Shown one piece after another: positions 9,263-45,017 of a DNA stretch of 45,017 bases. Every line of letters starts with the position of its first letter. The first letter of the stretch is position 1. Below the pieces are notes generated by a model, which was given only the letters and a program-made list of their open reading frames with translations, did not search any database and was not told the origin of the DNA. The DNA is from an uncultured Oscillibacter sp. (lineage in GTDB: Bacteria; Bacillota; Clostridia; Oscillospirales; Oscillospiraceae), in NCBI GenBank assembly GCA_949959305.1, contig CATLJA010000008.1, positions 1 to 45,017 of the forward strand. Direction: 5' to 3'. The translations under genes were made by a program, and so were the position numbers.

Positions 9263-9330
9263 CGGAACGGACCGCACTGTGTGAATCCCGTCCCGGGGGC
9301 AGGCTTCACGCCGTTCCGTCTGTTCTTTCT
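9263..9330 (+). terminator. Long imperfect stem-loop after the DUF1540 gene
   Basis: CGGAACGG pairs with CCGTTCCG and, further in, GTGTGAA faces TTCACGC, capped by a CCCG/GGGG helix. A pyrimidine-rich tract (TCTGTTCTTTCTCT) follows. It is probably the terminator of the DUF1540 gene; a structured RNA is less likely. Confidence 0.5.
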
Positions 9331-9332
9331 CT

Positions 9333-9360
9333 CCCCACAAAATCCGCGGATTTTGTGGGG
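9333..9360. repeat. Perfect 28-bp palindrome
   Basis: The half-site CCCCACAAAATCCG is followed directly by its exact reverse complement. No T-run follows on the + strand. It lies immediately before the dispersed repeat copy and the TauE gene, so it could be an operator, a second terminator, or part of a small inserted element. Confidence 0.75.
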
Positions 9361-40884: not shown

Positions 40885-41529
40885 ATGCTGTCTGCCGCGC
40901 TGCTGCTGTTCGCCAACACGCTGCTGTTCTCCCTGCGCCTCTCCGGCGGCGGTTCCTTCCCCAAGCCCCTGTCCGCCGCCGAGGAGCGGGATTGGCTGGA
41001 GAAGTACGCCGGAGGGGACCCGGAGGCAAGGCAGGTGCTGATTGAACGGAACCTAAGGCTGGTGGCGCATATTATTAAAAAATATTACACCCAAAGCGCC
41101 GACCAGGAGGACTTGATTTCCATTGGCACCATCGGATTGATTAAAGGCATCTCCAGCTTCGACCCCGCCAAGGGGGCCCGCCTTGCCACCTACGCCGCCC
41201 GGTGCATCGAAAACGAAATCCTCATGTACTTCCGCAGCCAGAAAAAGCTCCAGGGGGAGGTCTCCCTCTCCGACTCCATCGACAGCGATAAAGACGGCAA
41301 CGCCCTCCAGCTCATGGACGTCGTGGGGGTAGATGACACTATGCTGGAGGACCTTCACGACCGGGATAACGCCCTGCGGCTCCACCGTCTTATCCGGGAG
41401 CGGCTCTCCGCCCGGGAGGCGGAGATCGTCCGCCTGCGCTACGGTCTGGGAGGCACCGTGCCCCTGACCCAGCGGGAGATCGCCTCCTCCTTCGGCATCT
41501 CCCGGAGCTATGTGTCCCGCCGCGCTTAA
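40885..41529 (+). pseudogene. sigK: 5' part of sporulation sigma factor K, cut at the region 4 helix-turn-helix
   Basis: 214 aa. Late mother-cell sigma factor. A hydrophobic N-terminus (about 1-20) resembles the SpoIVFB-processed pro-sequence, then FPKPLSAAEE and IERNLRLVAHIIKKYY begin region 2, with DLISIGTIGLIKGI and ATYAARCIENEILMYFR following. Region 4 has TQREIASSFGISRSYVSR; homology stops there (nt 41520), and the frame ends two codons later. Usual SigK proteins continue with about 20-25 more residues (IEKxAL). GAGGAGG precedes the ATG. A hairpin and then foreign-looking genes follow. This fits an interrupted sigK, whose 3' end would lie beyond the window, rather than an ordinary stop mutation. 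Confidence 0.85.
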
Positions 41530-41537
41530 TGTAAACG

Positions 41538-41578
41538 ATGCCCGGAAAGCCTTGCAGCGCAAGGGCTTGTCCGGGCAT
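41538..41578 (+). terminator. Long inverted repeat at the sigK breakpoint
   Basis: ATGCCCGGA pairs with TCCGGGCAT, and AAGCC plus CTTGC pair with GCAAG and GGCTT further in, with small bulges. TGGATATTTTT follows. It begins 18 bp past the last sigK-like codon. It may be a terminator within the inserted element or part of its end. Confidence 0.65.
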
Positions 41579-41715
41579 TGGATATTTTTGGTATCGCCGC
41601 ACTTATTGTAAATGGTGGGAAATTTTAGGATAAGCGGCCATTCATCGGTTTTTAGTTGAGTAGTTTTTTCAGAGCTTCCACAAATTTTGCAATATCCTCA
41701 TAACTGCAAATATCA

Positions 41716-43032
41716 TCACAAGGATTGCATAAGAAAATCTATCGCTTTTATAACTTTTATCCCATCCTGTGTCTGCGTCAAGTCACAATCCAGCGCGATT
41801 ACGATCTTTTCATAGCTATCCCGAATTCTCCGCAATGGAGCCAGTTCCCGCTCCCGAGTTTCTGGTGCATTCATATTTTCCGTCACTTGGATATATTTCT
41901 TCTCATCCACCTTTGTGGCGATAAAGTCCACTTCCTGGTTGTCGATCTTCCCTATAGCTACATCATATCCTTGCCGCAACAGTTCAAAATAGACGATATT
42001 CTCCAGAATGTGCCCGCTGTCCCCATCTCGATAGCCCAGCAGGTAATTCCGCAAGCCCATATCCACGATATAGTATTTTCCCAGTGTTCGCAGATACTCT
42101 TTACCCTTGATATCGAACCGCTTAATCTCGTAGAAGATATACACTTCCAGCAATGCCTCAATATAGCTCTGAATGGTATGAACCGCAGGTTTCCTGCGGC
42201 CTTTTTCTTCTAAAAGGCCTTCCTTGACCAGCGTGTTGCCGATGGAGGTCGCGGACATATTGTTGCCAATGTTATCCGCCAAAAACATAATGATCTTTCG
42301 GAGCAGGATGGGGTCAGTGATGGTCCTGCGGCCTTTCCGCTTTTCTCGCTCCAGAATATCATTGACGACAGCGGCAGAGTACACACCGTCCAGCGCCGCT
42401 GTTACGCGGTCAATTTCCAGTCCCACATCCGCCAGCATAGGCATACCACCGAACCTAGCATATTCGTTGAACAATTCTCTTTCATCGTAAATATCACCGT
42501 CCTGGTCAGTGATCCGCCGCTTCAATGCGCCAGTAGGTGATTTTTTCTCTGTCACAGTGTACCCATGGAAATCCAAAAACTCTTTGAAAGAAAGGGGGAG
42601 CACCTTGATCTCAACATACCGGCCAGAAAGATAGGTGGACAACTCGGAAGAAAGCAGATAAGCATTGGAACCTGTGATATAGATGTCGCAGTTAAAATCC
42701 ACTCGGAAAGAGTTGACCGCGTTTTCCCATCCAGAGATTCTCTGCACCTCGTCAAAGAACAGATACATCCGTTTATCCAATAGAATGCGGGCTCTCACAT
42801 ATTCGTAAAAACCTCTGGCATCCATGTCCGGAAAACGCATGGACTCAAAGTTCATTTCCAGGATTTGTTCCTGAGTAATGCCGTTTTCGCGCAAATGCTG
42901 GGCCGTCAATTTCATGAGACTGGACTTACCGCAGCGCCGAATCCCGGTGATGACCTTGATCATCTCAATGTCTTGAAACGCGATCATCCGCTTTAGGTAG
43001 AGATCGCGCTTTTTTAATGTGACTTTTTGCAT
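41716..43032 (-). CDS. AAA ATPase with DUF4143 (ATP-binding protein)
   Basis: 438 aa. Walker A GIRRCGKSS (about 29-37), Walker B MYLFFDEVQRI, a sensor ITGSNAYLLSSELSTYLSGR, and a C-terminal DUF4143/PD-(D/E)XK-like region with GHILENIVYFELLRQGYDV and QEVDFIATK. The family is common in anaerobes and mobile regions; its function is unknown. The chosen ATG (MQKVTLKKRD) has AAAGGTGG upstream. Its GC is far below that of the core genes, so it was probably acquired. It lies between the sigK breakpoint and the prophage genes and points toward sigK. Confidence 0.9.
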   Translation of the reverse strand: MQKVTLKKRDLYLKRMIAFQDIEMIKVITGIRRCGKSSLMKLTAQHLRENGITQEQILEMNFESMRFPDMDARGFYEYVRARILLDKRMYLFFDEVQRISGWENAVNSFRVDFNCDIYITGSNAYLLSSELSTYLSGRYVEIKVLPLSFKEFLDFHGYTVTEKKSPTGALKRRITDQDGDIYDERELFNEYARFGGMPMLADVGLEIDRVTAALDGVYSAAVVNDILEREKRKGRRTITDPILLRKIIMFLADNIGNNMSATSIGNTLVKEGLLEEKGRRKPAVHTIQSYIEALLEVYIFYEIKRFDIKGKEYLRTLGKYYIVDMGLRNYLLGYRDGDSGHILENIVYFELLRQGYDVAIGKIDNQEVDFIATKVDEKKYIQVTENMNAPETRERELAPLRRIRDSYEKIVIALDCDLTQTQDGIKVIKAIDFLMQSL

Positions 43033-43273
43033 TGTGTTCACCACCTTTTGACTTATCTTACCACAATTATCCCCAATAACCAAGTTTATTACATTGATAT
43101 TAAAAACTTCTTATTTATTTTGGTTTATTACTTGAAAGAAACAACCTGGTGCATTCTTGGGAATGGATGTGGTAAAATAACACCAAACCAGCAAAGCCTT
43201 GATACAAGCGGGGTTGCGCTGATTTGGTCCAAACAATACAGCAAAATTTCGACAGGAGGTGATACGCGATAGA

Positions 43274-43348
43274 ATGAAAATCCACCGCCGGTCTTATCCT
43301 CGCCAGCAGGATGTGCGACTATCTTCAAAGGATTACCAGCCCCCGTAA
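43274..43348 (+). CDS. Possible 24-aa leader peptide or small ORF
   Basis: MKIHRRSYPRQQDVRLSSKD plus four more residues, rich in Arg, Gln and Ser. AGGAGGTGAT, a full match to the 16S 3' end, lies 8 nt before the ATG. It is in the same frame as the tail gene 50 bp on. Its stop lies within the 5' arm of the terminator that follows. The 190 bp before it (from 43084) hold no clear gene. Confidence 0.4.
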   Translation: MKIHRRSYPRQQDVRLSSKDYQPP

Positions 43349-43382
43349 CCGACGCTCTTTGTTGGTTGCGGGGGCTTTTTAT
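43338..43382 (+). terminator. Intrinsic terminator upstream of the tail gene
   Basis: AGCCCCCGTAACC pairs with GGTTGCGGGGGCT (one G-T pair) around a 13-nt loop, followed by TTTTTATTTTT. It lies only 15 bp before the first codon of the tail-protein frame. Confidence 0.93.
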
Positions 43383-43396
43383 TTTTATCCGAAACC

Positions 43397-44263
43397 GTGC
43401 AGGAGCATAGCGTCTTGGTTATTGACAAAAAGCGGCCAAGGCTGGCCGGAGAGACGGACGAGGGCTACCGCACCAGGCTCTCCATGAAGGGGATTATTGC
43501 CAGCTGGGCCGGGACGGGCAAGGGCGTCCGTTACGCCATGGCCGCCCTTGGCTATGAACACAGCGCGGTGGAGCCGGTATCCCCCCGCGACCCGGCCCGC
43601 TGGGCGGAGTTCGTTGTCAATTTGGGATTTGGAAGTCATGGCGCGGTTGAGGATTTCTCGATTATCCGGGGAGAGATTGAAAAGGTAAAGGAAGGCTCCA
43701 GTAAGCTGGCGTATCTAATCCTTCCCCATGAACCGATCCTATTTATATACCAGGAGAACGTCTGCCTTTACCGCTTCCTCATGCTGTCCATGCGCTTCTC
43801 CCACCTTCGGGAAGCGGTGGTCCGGTGGGACGGGAGCGTGGACTATGACGGGGAGATTCTGTTTGACCAGGTGCCTATGGGTATCCGCCTTCCGGCGATG
43901 CGGTTTTGCATACGCCTCCGGGAGCTGCGGAGCCGCTCCATCCGCTGGGATGGGAGCGTACTGCACGATGGGACGATTGACTTCGGCCAGCAAATCGGCA
44001 GCGGCGGAAGCCCAGCCTTCGGCGTGCGGCTCCGTGCGCCCCACGCCCTGGCGGTCTCCGTGCCGGAGCTGCGGATGGGCGGCGGTATGGCGCACCTGTC
44101 CTCCGCGCGGGTCAGCCGCTCCGTATTCGCCGCGCCCTGCGCCCGCCATGGGGGGCATATCAGCGGGGCGGTGACAATGGACAACTGGCGGGGGATGGAC
44201 GGCGGCCTGTCCTTCGACGGGACCTATAAATTTGACGCGTATCTGAAAAAGGAGGAACTTTGA
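43397..44263 (+). CDS. Phage tail protein (P2 gpI-like), 5' end apparently lost
   Basis: 288 aa from a GTG with no ribosome binding site. RPRLAGETDEGYRTRLSMKGIIASWAGTGKGVRYAMAALGYE and RWAEFVVNLGF match the middle of P2 tail protein I; the usual LLPP start is absent. The C-terminal half carries beta units of the form RWDGSVxxDGxIxFxQ (about 150-165, 190-205), then NWRGMDGGLSFDGTYKF. Such proteins join baseplate and tail fibre. A terminator sits right before it, so the gene has probably lost its promoter-proximal part. Next gene follows after 1 bp. Confidence 0.8.
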   Translation: MQEHSVLVIDKKRPRLAGETDEGYRTRLSMKGIIASWAGTGKGVRYAMAALGYEHSAVEPVSPRDPARWAEFVVNLGFGSHGAVEDFSIIRGEIEKVKEGSSKLAYLILPHEPILFIYQENVCLYRFLMLSMRFSHLREAVVRWDGSVDYDGEILFDQVPMGIRLPAMRFCIRLRELRSRSIRWDGSVLHDGTIDFGQQIGSGGSPAFGVRLRAPHALAVSVPELRMGGGMAHLSSARVSRSVFAAPCARHGGHISGAVTMDNWRGMDGGLSFDGTYKFDAYLKKEEL

Positions 44264-44264
44264 C

Positions 44265-44657
44265 ATGGCGACAAACGAGCACAGCACCGTAACCCGGCGG
44301 CGGAGGGTCAAGCTCTGCCAGGCGTCCAGCGACGCGGCGAAGCCCCTGGCCCCGATTACGCATATCGCTTTCGGCAGCGGCGGGGCCGGGGAGGACGGGG
44401 AGCCGCTGGACCCCCTGGAGACCCAGGAGGCCCTGGCGGAGGAGATTGCGCGGTATCCGGTGGGGACGGTGGCGTACCCGGTGGACGCCACGGCCCGGTA
44501 CAGCGTCACCATCCCGGCGGACGCCCTGGTGGGCCAGACCATCAGCGAGGCGGCGCTTATCGACAGCGACGGGGACGTGGCGGCGGTGAAGAACATGTAC
44601 CCCAAGCGCAAGGACCCGGGCGTGGCCTTTACGTTTGAATTTGACGATGAATTTTAA
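44265..44657 (+). CDS. Phage tail-collar fibre-type protein
   Basis: 130 aa. STVTRRRRVKLCQASSDAAKPLAPITHIAFGSGG and ARYSVTIPADALVGQTISEAALIDSDGDVAAVKNMYPKRKDPGVAFTFEFDDEF match the short tail-collar fibre proteins of myovirus-like prophages. AAAAGGAGG lies 9 nt before the ATG. It is coupled to the tail I gene by 1-bp spacing and is followed by a further fibre gene. Confidence 0.88.
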   Translation: MATNEHSTVTRRRRVKLCQASSDAAKPLAPITHIAFGSGGAGEDGEPLDPLETQEALAEEIARYPVGTVAYPVDATARYSVTIPADALVGQTISEAALIDSDGDVAAVKNMYPKRKDPGVAFTFEFDDEF

Positions 44658-44675
44658 GCGAGGCGGTGAAATAAA

Positions 44676-45017
44676 GTGGCTGAGAAATATTATCAGATTC
44701 CCGAGGAGCCGGTCTACCAGGCGGACATCCGGGAAATCCAGAACAGTGACCCCGTCAACGCGCAGACGATTGTCAATCCGGTGATACGGGCGCTGCTGGG
44801 GAACATTGCCTACCTCAAGCGGGAGGCGGACGGCCTGTCCGCCGCGAGGGCGATTGACGGCATGTCCTTTGACGGCTCCGCCGGAATCGCCCACTTCGGG
44901 ACCTGTTCCACGGCGGCGGCCACGGCGGCAAAGACGGTGGCGCTGACCGGCTTCACGCTGACGGCGGGGGCGCGGATTGCGGTCAAGTTTACCGCCGCGA
45001 ACACGGCGGCAAATCCC
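44676..45017 (+). CDS. Phage tail fibre protein, N-terminal part (runs off window)
   Basis: At least 114 aa, open at the right edge. It begins at a GTG: VAEKYYQIPEEPVYQADI, then an RALLGNIAYLKREADGLSAARAIDGMSFDGSAGIAHFGTCSTAAATAAKTVAL stretch typical of prophage fibre proteins. GAGGCGGTGA lies just before. The C-terminal receptor-binding part would be beyond the window. Confidence 0.8.
   Translation, partial: MAEKYYQIPEEPVYQADIREIQNSDPVNAQTIVNPVIRALLGNIAYLKREADGLSAARAIDGMSFDGSAGIAHFGTCSTAAATAAKTVALTGFTLTAGARIAVKFTAANTAANP

Follow-up and report, generated by a model that had tools for sequence, protein, structure and literature searches.

When a sigK gene breaks off just short of its end and is followed by phage tail genes, is it a broken gene, or the first half of a gene that is put back together during sporulation? 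The gene in question lies near the right end of a 45,017-nucleotide (nt) stretch of DNA from an uncultured Oscillibacter sp. (hereafter the window), which is the complete contig C8 (CATLJA010000008.1) of a draft genome (GCA_949959305.1; G000) of 2.37 Mb in 163 contigs, with a completeness of 79.5% and a contamination of 5.5%. The window holds, in all likelihood, the left part of a skin-like element that intervenes in sigK and would be excised in the mother cell to rebuild the gene; it stops inside the element because contig C8 ends there. The arrangement suggests that the split gene must be rejoined at the DNA level before spores are finished.

The 5′ part of sigK

40885..41529, + strand: sigK 5′ part, a 214-amino-acid (aa) open reading frame (ORF) made of codons 1-209, up to a Val codon, followed by SR-RA-stop encoded by the element

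The best families for this ORF are SigK models (NF004471, 258.6 bits against a cut-off of 252). Pfam finds sigma-70 regions 2 and 4, the latter matched as far as position 40 of its 50-position profile, and the N-terminus is hydrophobic and pro-sequence-like. Likeness to intact relatives is lost after SRSYVSR (nt 41520), and a stop follows two codons on. An original prediction, made from the letters of the window, had described a sigK-like frame with regions 2 and 4 that breaks off at this very point, and both the SigK profiles and the relatives agree with it.

The junction was read in 30 loci (the window and 29 relatives). Eight, the window among them, are cut at SRSYVSR, and 21 continue as SYVSR-[IL]EK.A to a normal end; in the last, L022 from the same genus (genome G082), the C-terminal end is intact and the N-terminal part is broken. 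Past the cut, most split loci carry related sequence beginning TAATGTAAACGA, followed in many by a hairpin of the CCCGGAAAG type. The tails themselves vary, and in L029 the frame reads SYV and then TAG at once. An identical cut in 8 of 30 loci, mostly with related sequence behind it, is not a product of chance, and chance truncation of sigK was therefore rejected. Relatives whose frame ends in SYVSRRA, to which the original prediction had drawn attention, turned out to be split themselves; intact relatives read SYVSR-IEKKAL. A second intact sigK, which would also have told against that prediction, was not found in this genome (other matches are at most 40% identical; the assembly is 79.5% complete).

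The 3′ part, the recombinase and the attachment sites

If the gene is split, a fragment with its 3′ end should exist as well, as the original prediction expected. A degenerate IEKxAxxKL pattern has a single match in the genome, on contig C39 (locus L060), and the fragment found there begins with IEKxAL as foreseen. Adjoining it is the large serine recombinase that had likewise been anticipated.

C39 6332-7933: large serine recombinase, 533 aa (PF00239, PF07508, PF13408)
41507..41520, + strand: core GCTATGTGTCCCGC, common to the left attachment site (attL, window) and the right one (attR, C39 7978-7991)
41512-41513, + strand: crossover dinucleotide GT, within the core
41530..41540, + strand: right arm TGTAAACGATG of the attachment site of the free element (attP), 16 nt from GT
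C39 7956-7966: left arm CATCGTTTACA of attP, partner of TGTAAACGATG, 16 nt from GT

The protein has the resolvase N-terminal domain, recombinase domain and zinc ribbon of a large serine recombinase, and among its PDB relatives are TnpX and YokA, the integrase of SP-beta. Its gene ends 58 nt before the 3′ fragment ATCGAAAAGCGGGCC..., which has its stop at C39 8066. The remark that no serine recombinase stands next to the 5′ half needs an amendment: one is present, beside the 3′ half on the other contig. When the halves are joined at the core they give a protein of 236 aa that aligns end-to-end with intact SigK of the same genus (G355, G210 and G155, taken from the best rows among the matches listed), and the NF004471 score rises to 281.0 bits, against 292.4 for intact G355. 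The cut-off of TIGR02846 (298.65) lies above the 5′ part (256.5), the joined protein (276.6) and the intact relative (289.7) alike.

The same order of parts is seen unbroken in a relative: the 5685-bp contig of L137 (Oscillibacter sp. ABMPRH_166_8) carries a 5′ part that is 88% identical to the window over 714 nt, an insert of about 4.0 kb, the recombinase and the 3′ part. Beyond the fragment, C39 is collinear with the end of L137 and with L130 (three blocks, 83-87%). On the right side, the case for synteny is carried by these two loci because the genes downstream on C39 were absent from the sigK surroundings examined in G082, G355, G210 and G155; the GIY-YIG-type frame upstream of sigK in the window does occur near sigK in those four genomes. 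With both halves, the core, the recombinase and the one-contig arrangement of L137, the proposal of another skin-like insertion with its attachment site inside the last helix-turn-helix holds up well.

A second recombinase copy, on contig C2 of the same assembly, is also followed by a sigK 3′ fragment, a different one. It is the outermost of five large serine recombinase genes on one strand within about 9 kb (C2 63600-72200, L061) and is 91% identical to the C39 recombinase. Since the flank matches L118, from another lineage, this attR is read as contamination, and the C2 copy probably comes from a contaminant lineage. Pairing of C8 with C2 was rejected: the C2 flank belongs to the other lineage, and the C39 fragment resembles C-termini of the same genus.

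The 14-bp core is the short direct repeat that the original prediction had hoped to see at both junctions, with one copy in the window and one in L060. The arms both stand 16 nt from GT, and the dyad is therefore centred on GT. Among 50 attR rows collected, one (L166) is spurious, and all 49 genuine rows keep GT with variable flanking bases; because the neighbours vary and L029 reads SYV-TAG, crossover is assigned to the GT of the Val codon, here called site C. The element has these traits of a skin element: it interrupts sigK in such a way that the parts can rejoin in frame, it encodes a site-specific recombinase near an attachment site, and its two junctions share a short direct repeat flanked by inverted-repeat arms. 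A search of IMG/VR for attP gave 0 matches to one tight pattern, which is too narrow to be informative. An intact attP-like junction made of left arm, GT, right arm and hairpin was observed behind a recombinase, and outside sigK, in L170 (G400:C42, CAMWBA010000042.1, about 9296-9360). The ends of this contig do not overlap over 12-299 nt, leaving a closed circle unsupported; two elements may stand there in tandem.

These parts suggest the following course of events. The recombinase from the other end of the element would have integrated it at GT in the Val codon of the region 4 recognition helix (GISRSY-V-SR) and would excise it in the mother cell during sporulation, rebuilding sigK, so that the forespore would retain the split copy. 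A protein of about 45 aa, encoded directly upstream of the recombinase, would probably assist excision as a directionality factor. In 88 sequences searched for this small ORF, 78 had a usable upstream region; tblastn matched 68 of these at E ≤ 1 and 52 at E ≤ 0.001, and a motif scan collected 71, several of which are spurious, including most of those at -37 nt. Three examples compared with Pfam, and one compared with NCBIfam, matched no family. The product is a candidate directionality factor, for which the parallel with Skr of Bacillus subtilis (64 aa, its gene directly preceding spoIVCA and overlapping it; PMC6957869, accessible part) is suggestive only.

A recombinase family tied to site C

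Relatives of the recombinase (E ≤ 1e-150) occur in 52 of 400 genomes of the family and 21 of 394 of the order, this genome being counted in both. Thirty loci were examined for what lies downstream, giving 28 rows (none for L076 and L081). In 21, a pattern match places IEK[RK]A behind the recombinase, and in four (L067, L068, L082, L092) an LEK-type fragment, judged by eye, stands there; the remaining three (L087, L091, L093) have no 3′ fragment behind it, and L087 and L091 adjoin a sigK 5′ part. Among named genomes, neighbours were read for the best 80 of 512 relatives: the pattern detects a sigK 3′ fragment behind 56, and reading by eye adds 7 with variant sigma 3′ ends (L124, L174, L175, L178, L182, L184, L187) and 12 that stand convergent beside a sigK 5′ part. 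With 63 + 12 of the best 80 adjoining parts of sigK, the family is, judged from these neighbourhoods, tied to site C among the relatives read.

One of the variant loci, L182, is from Blautia wexlerae MSK.20.46; its recombinase relative is 74% identical, a sigK-like 5′ part lies upstream, and the variant 3′ fragment was read by eye as IEKTALQKL. Blautia belongs to the Lachnospiraceae, so the split-sigK trait seems to cross families. Named phages hold relatives of the recombinase in 761 records, all below 60% identity, and in IMG/VR a related recombinase was found on 10 contigs.

Contents of the element

41536..41581, + strand: terminator-like hairpin just inside the element (-32.7 kcal/mol, z-score -5.45 against shuffles)
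41716..43083, - strand: AAA_14 / DUF4143 ATPase (Pfam)
43397..44263, + strand: phage tail protein (phrog_34969, E = 1.5e-30, from profile position 70 of 285)
44265..44657, + strand: tail collar fibre protein (PF12571, phrog_1780)
44676..45017, + strand: open frame cut by the contig end, with no family match

The long inverted repeat and the ATPase gene named in the original prediction are both real: the first is the hairpin, and similar hairpin-like sequence stands in other split loci; the second encodes a protein with relatives 91-92% identical in site-C loci L053, L120 and L125. The label of prophage stood in part. The tail genes are there, the first probably lacking its N-terminal part because its match begins at position 70 of 285; the small complete relatives of the element that were listed show no phage genes recognisable by eye. 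As for the modules of a complete prophage, the assembled parts show tail genes alone, with no capsid, portal or terminase seen where not every ORF was searched and the middle is unassembled. IMG/VR has six relatives of the tail protein, at 29-47% identity. Before the recombinase, C39 (2-5478) encodes two large proteins inside the element, one of 1075 aa and one of 744 aa whose frame runs off the contig; neither has a Pfam or PHROGs match, and the longer has a J-domain-like start by eye. These two and the tail genes had no match among the loci compared (a set excluding L066-L095). Cargo differs between small site-C elements: an AAA_14-type ATPase and other genes in L053 and L125 (the ATPase by comparison, the rest by eye), and, by eye, a chemotaxis-like protein in L137 and a Fic-like protein in L138.

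Two intervals between site-C junctions are far longer. One, of about 103 kb, lies at about 260165-363446 of G182:C1 (L234-L236, L248, L100 and L101, with L149; Flavonifractor sp. An82). By eye it holds conjugation-like and many ABC-transporter-like genes, with AAA_14-like ATPases near both ends, and it looks like an accretion of mobile elements. The other, at about 102369-132941 of G284:C69 (L098-L099, on the contig of L131, Pseudoflavonifractor sp. 524-17), lies between a site-C attL and attR in direct orientation, has no Ns and contains hisC, ftsE, lysS, dprA, topA, trmFO and plsX above curated cut-offs; none of these was found within about 40 kb of sigK in G064 and G200 of the same genus. 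If it is not the outcome of a rearrangement or misassembly, it is an interval that holds housekeeping genes and can be excised.

Alternative explanations

Several observations weigh against a working skin-like element. No excision product, transcript or spore has been observed, the element being known here from its sequence. Its attL and attR lie on separate contigs of an incomplete and slightly contaminated assembly, with the middle missing, and a further attR, joined to a different sigK 3′ end, sits on C2. Five of the best 80 recombinase relatives (L115, L151, L155, L170, L192) stand beside neither half of sigK as read. Upstream of the recombinase, the best scores for a sigma-E promoter, compared with those of shuffles, are 8.18 against 7.77 (standard deviation (sd) 0.07) at -250..-70 and 7.92 against 7.84 (sd 0.06) at -400..-200, and no region reaches 10; upstream of sigK the score is 8.65 against 7.62 (sd 0.19). 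For the short 3′ fragments, the ratio of nonsynonymous to synonymous substitutions (dN/dS) gives noisy values, some of them high. Finally, members of Oscillibacter are called asporogenous (PMC3533761, accessible part), and this listing speaks against a working sporulation program, unless the program is cryptic. That same listing, the draft state of the contigs and the unseen excision are what an ordinary mobile element or prophage that knocked out sigK in a non-sporulating lineage, leaving the halves as a pseudogene, would have in its favour. We consider such a pseudogene improbable. For the split 5′ parts of the window and L137, dN is 0.033 and dS 0.545, a ratio of about 0.06, against 0.07-0.10 in three intact pairs of the same genus (dN/dS 0.072/0.931 for G355/G155, and 0.105/1.071 and 0.086/1.178 for the others), so that the split 5′ part, by this comparison, is as constrained as intact sigK, under purifying selection. 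The 3′ fragments retain frame and stop in the rows examined (C39 against L137: dN 0.070, dS 0.432, too short for a firm estimate), and Spo0A is kept in this genome, above its cut-off.

An active or semi-active mobile element that excises on its own induction (stress, a phage or conjugative cycle), repairing sigK as a side effect, is a more serious contender, if still an unlikely one. The tail genes of the window, the 10 IMG/VR contigs with a related recombinase, the intact attP-like junction of G400:C42 and the intact infectious phages known from sigK (PMC13141910, accessible part) would all fit it. Yet C8 and C39 showed no capsid or terminase in a search that did not take in every ORF, cargo varies among the small relatives of 4-8 kb, and G400:C42 lacks a terminal overlap, so that a circle is unproven. 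That the truncated protein ending in SYVSRRA is itself a working sigma factor we find very hard to credit: it does retain region 2 and most of region 4, but 21 of the 30 loci continue past SYVSR, the tails of the split ones differ down to the stop after SYV in L029, and the 3′ fragment lies in frame beside the recombinase. Still less credible is a chimeric contig end; a 163-contig draft with 5.5% contamination could contain one, but the same junction appears in many assemblies, including that of the isolate Colidextribacter sp. OB.20 (L125) and the single contig of G078.

Comparison with known elements

The skin element of B. subtilis (with SpoIVCA and Skr) likewise splits sigK in frame, has a large serine recombinase at one end and interrupts a SigK with a pro-sequence. 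Its recombinase gene lies beside the 5′ part of sigK; the one described here lies beside the 3′ part. The B. subtilis element occupies an AATGA site at nt 423, in common with B. cereus strains (PMC10745906; this and the other papers cited in this section were accessible in part, and statements drawn from them are limited to those parts). The present insertion is in the Val codon near the end of the gene, and the two are not orthologous by position (a break at codon 209 against nt 423). The original prediction had found a pro-sequence together with a split gene unusual; PMC5025042 gives both for B. subtilis, and the combination is no anomaly.

Closer in layout is skinCd of Clostridioides difficile (recombinase CD1231, directionality factor CD1234), where the recombinase likewise stands directly upstream of the sigK 3′ part and the junctions likewise carry short conserved motifs and inverted repeats (PMC5025042); unlike the SigK of the window, whose N-terminus is pro-sequence-like, that of C. 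difficile has no pro-sequence. The same paper (2016) places skinBs and skinCd at different sites and treats skin as an exception in clostridia, naming C. tetani, some C. botulinum and one C. perfringens strain as carriers; skin is elsewhere described as spread among several bacilli and clostridia (PMC5595907). Members of the B. cereus group show that sigK has been entered several times independently and at different places, nt 195 and nt 423, in one case with non-prophage cargo; neither place is site C, and two elements in one gene are not described in the accessible text (PMC10745906). Site C differs from the reported B. subtilis and B. cereus sites. No literature report of it was found, in sources seen in part and with the precise insertion points in C. 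difficile and C. perfringens not established.

Related arrangements are known beyond skin itself. The gin element in gerE of B. cereus ATCC10987 is also a non-prophage element with a serine recombinase and an extra factor, GirX, whose target is rebuilt during sporulation; it differs in its target gene and in having three recombinases in one element (PMC5595907). Phages that carry phage genes into sigK are reported from C. tetani, C. perfringens (phiS63, as cited) and Alicyclobacillus (MMB025) (PMC5553647, PMC13141910); unlike them, the present element shows tail genes alone, the first probably truncated, with capsid and terminase unseen on the two contigs. Against the clostridial exception described in PMC5025042, sigK splitting is a recurrent trait in a large, mostly gut-derived family. 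Genomes of this kind may well be annotated automatically as lacking sigK or as having a truncated copy, and this could strengthen the view that the bacteria form no spores. Together with the attachment sites and the candidate directionality factor, the site-C recombinases also offer a ready set of related recombination systems for study.

Further split sites in sigK

Is site C the only place at which the gene is split? A survey of 47 genomes that are at least 92% complete, chosen for having no full-length sigK match (its tallies are not frequencies), points to two more. Site A, with a break at about residues 60-70, was seen in at least 22 of the 47 (one side only in G152, G396 and G184), and site B, at about 107-118, in at least 25 (one side only in G324). 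One or the other was present in at least 43; the other four, among the matches listed, are G147, G193, G235 and G377. Nt 195 of the B. cereus group corresponds to codon 65, close to site A, and a site near A is therefore already known. The site A junction in G082 and G291 is HIIKK, in an A-rich stretch; that of site B is IEN-EIL, in G091 with arms GTGAGGATAGC/GCTATCCTCAC and a common AAATG.

With sigK split at these two places as well, some relatives would need two or three excisions. Sites A and B occur together in at least three genomes (G112, G154, G367), and a piece ending at residue 213-215 with a site-C recombinase is present besides A or B in at least 10: B and C in at least seven (G024, G078, G209, G253, G284, G340, G368), A and C in at least two (G182, G237), and all three in at least one (G091). 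In G078 a single contig carries pieces 1-114 and 109-212 and the 3′ fragment, in that order. We lean towards the view that sigK in this clade consists of several DNA-level exons, with at least three element lineages that have their own sites A, B and C, two or three excisions in some species, and one interval with housekeeping genes. SigK would then be made solely after several independent precise excisions, and an interval like that of G284 would amount to programmed loss of essential genes from a doomed mother cell. Multiply split genes would also allow a direct test of repeated excision as a timing device against sigK as a safe harbour for mobile DNA. No literature report of two elements in one sigK, or of a sigK interruption in Oscillospiraceae, was found in sources seen in part, with most subscription journals outside the coverage.

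Within the genus of the window, sigK is intact in G155, G210 and G355, split at A in G082, G291 and G381, at B in G254 and (one side) G324, and at C in the genome described here. The most divided gene is that of G091, in four pieces. One contig carries its A and B pieces, and beside either break stands a stretch with distant similarity to the site-C recombinase (24% identity with E = 1e-19, and 20% with E = 2e-6). Its last piece, YVSR-LEKKALEKL, lies behind a site-C recombinase on contig C5.

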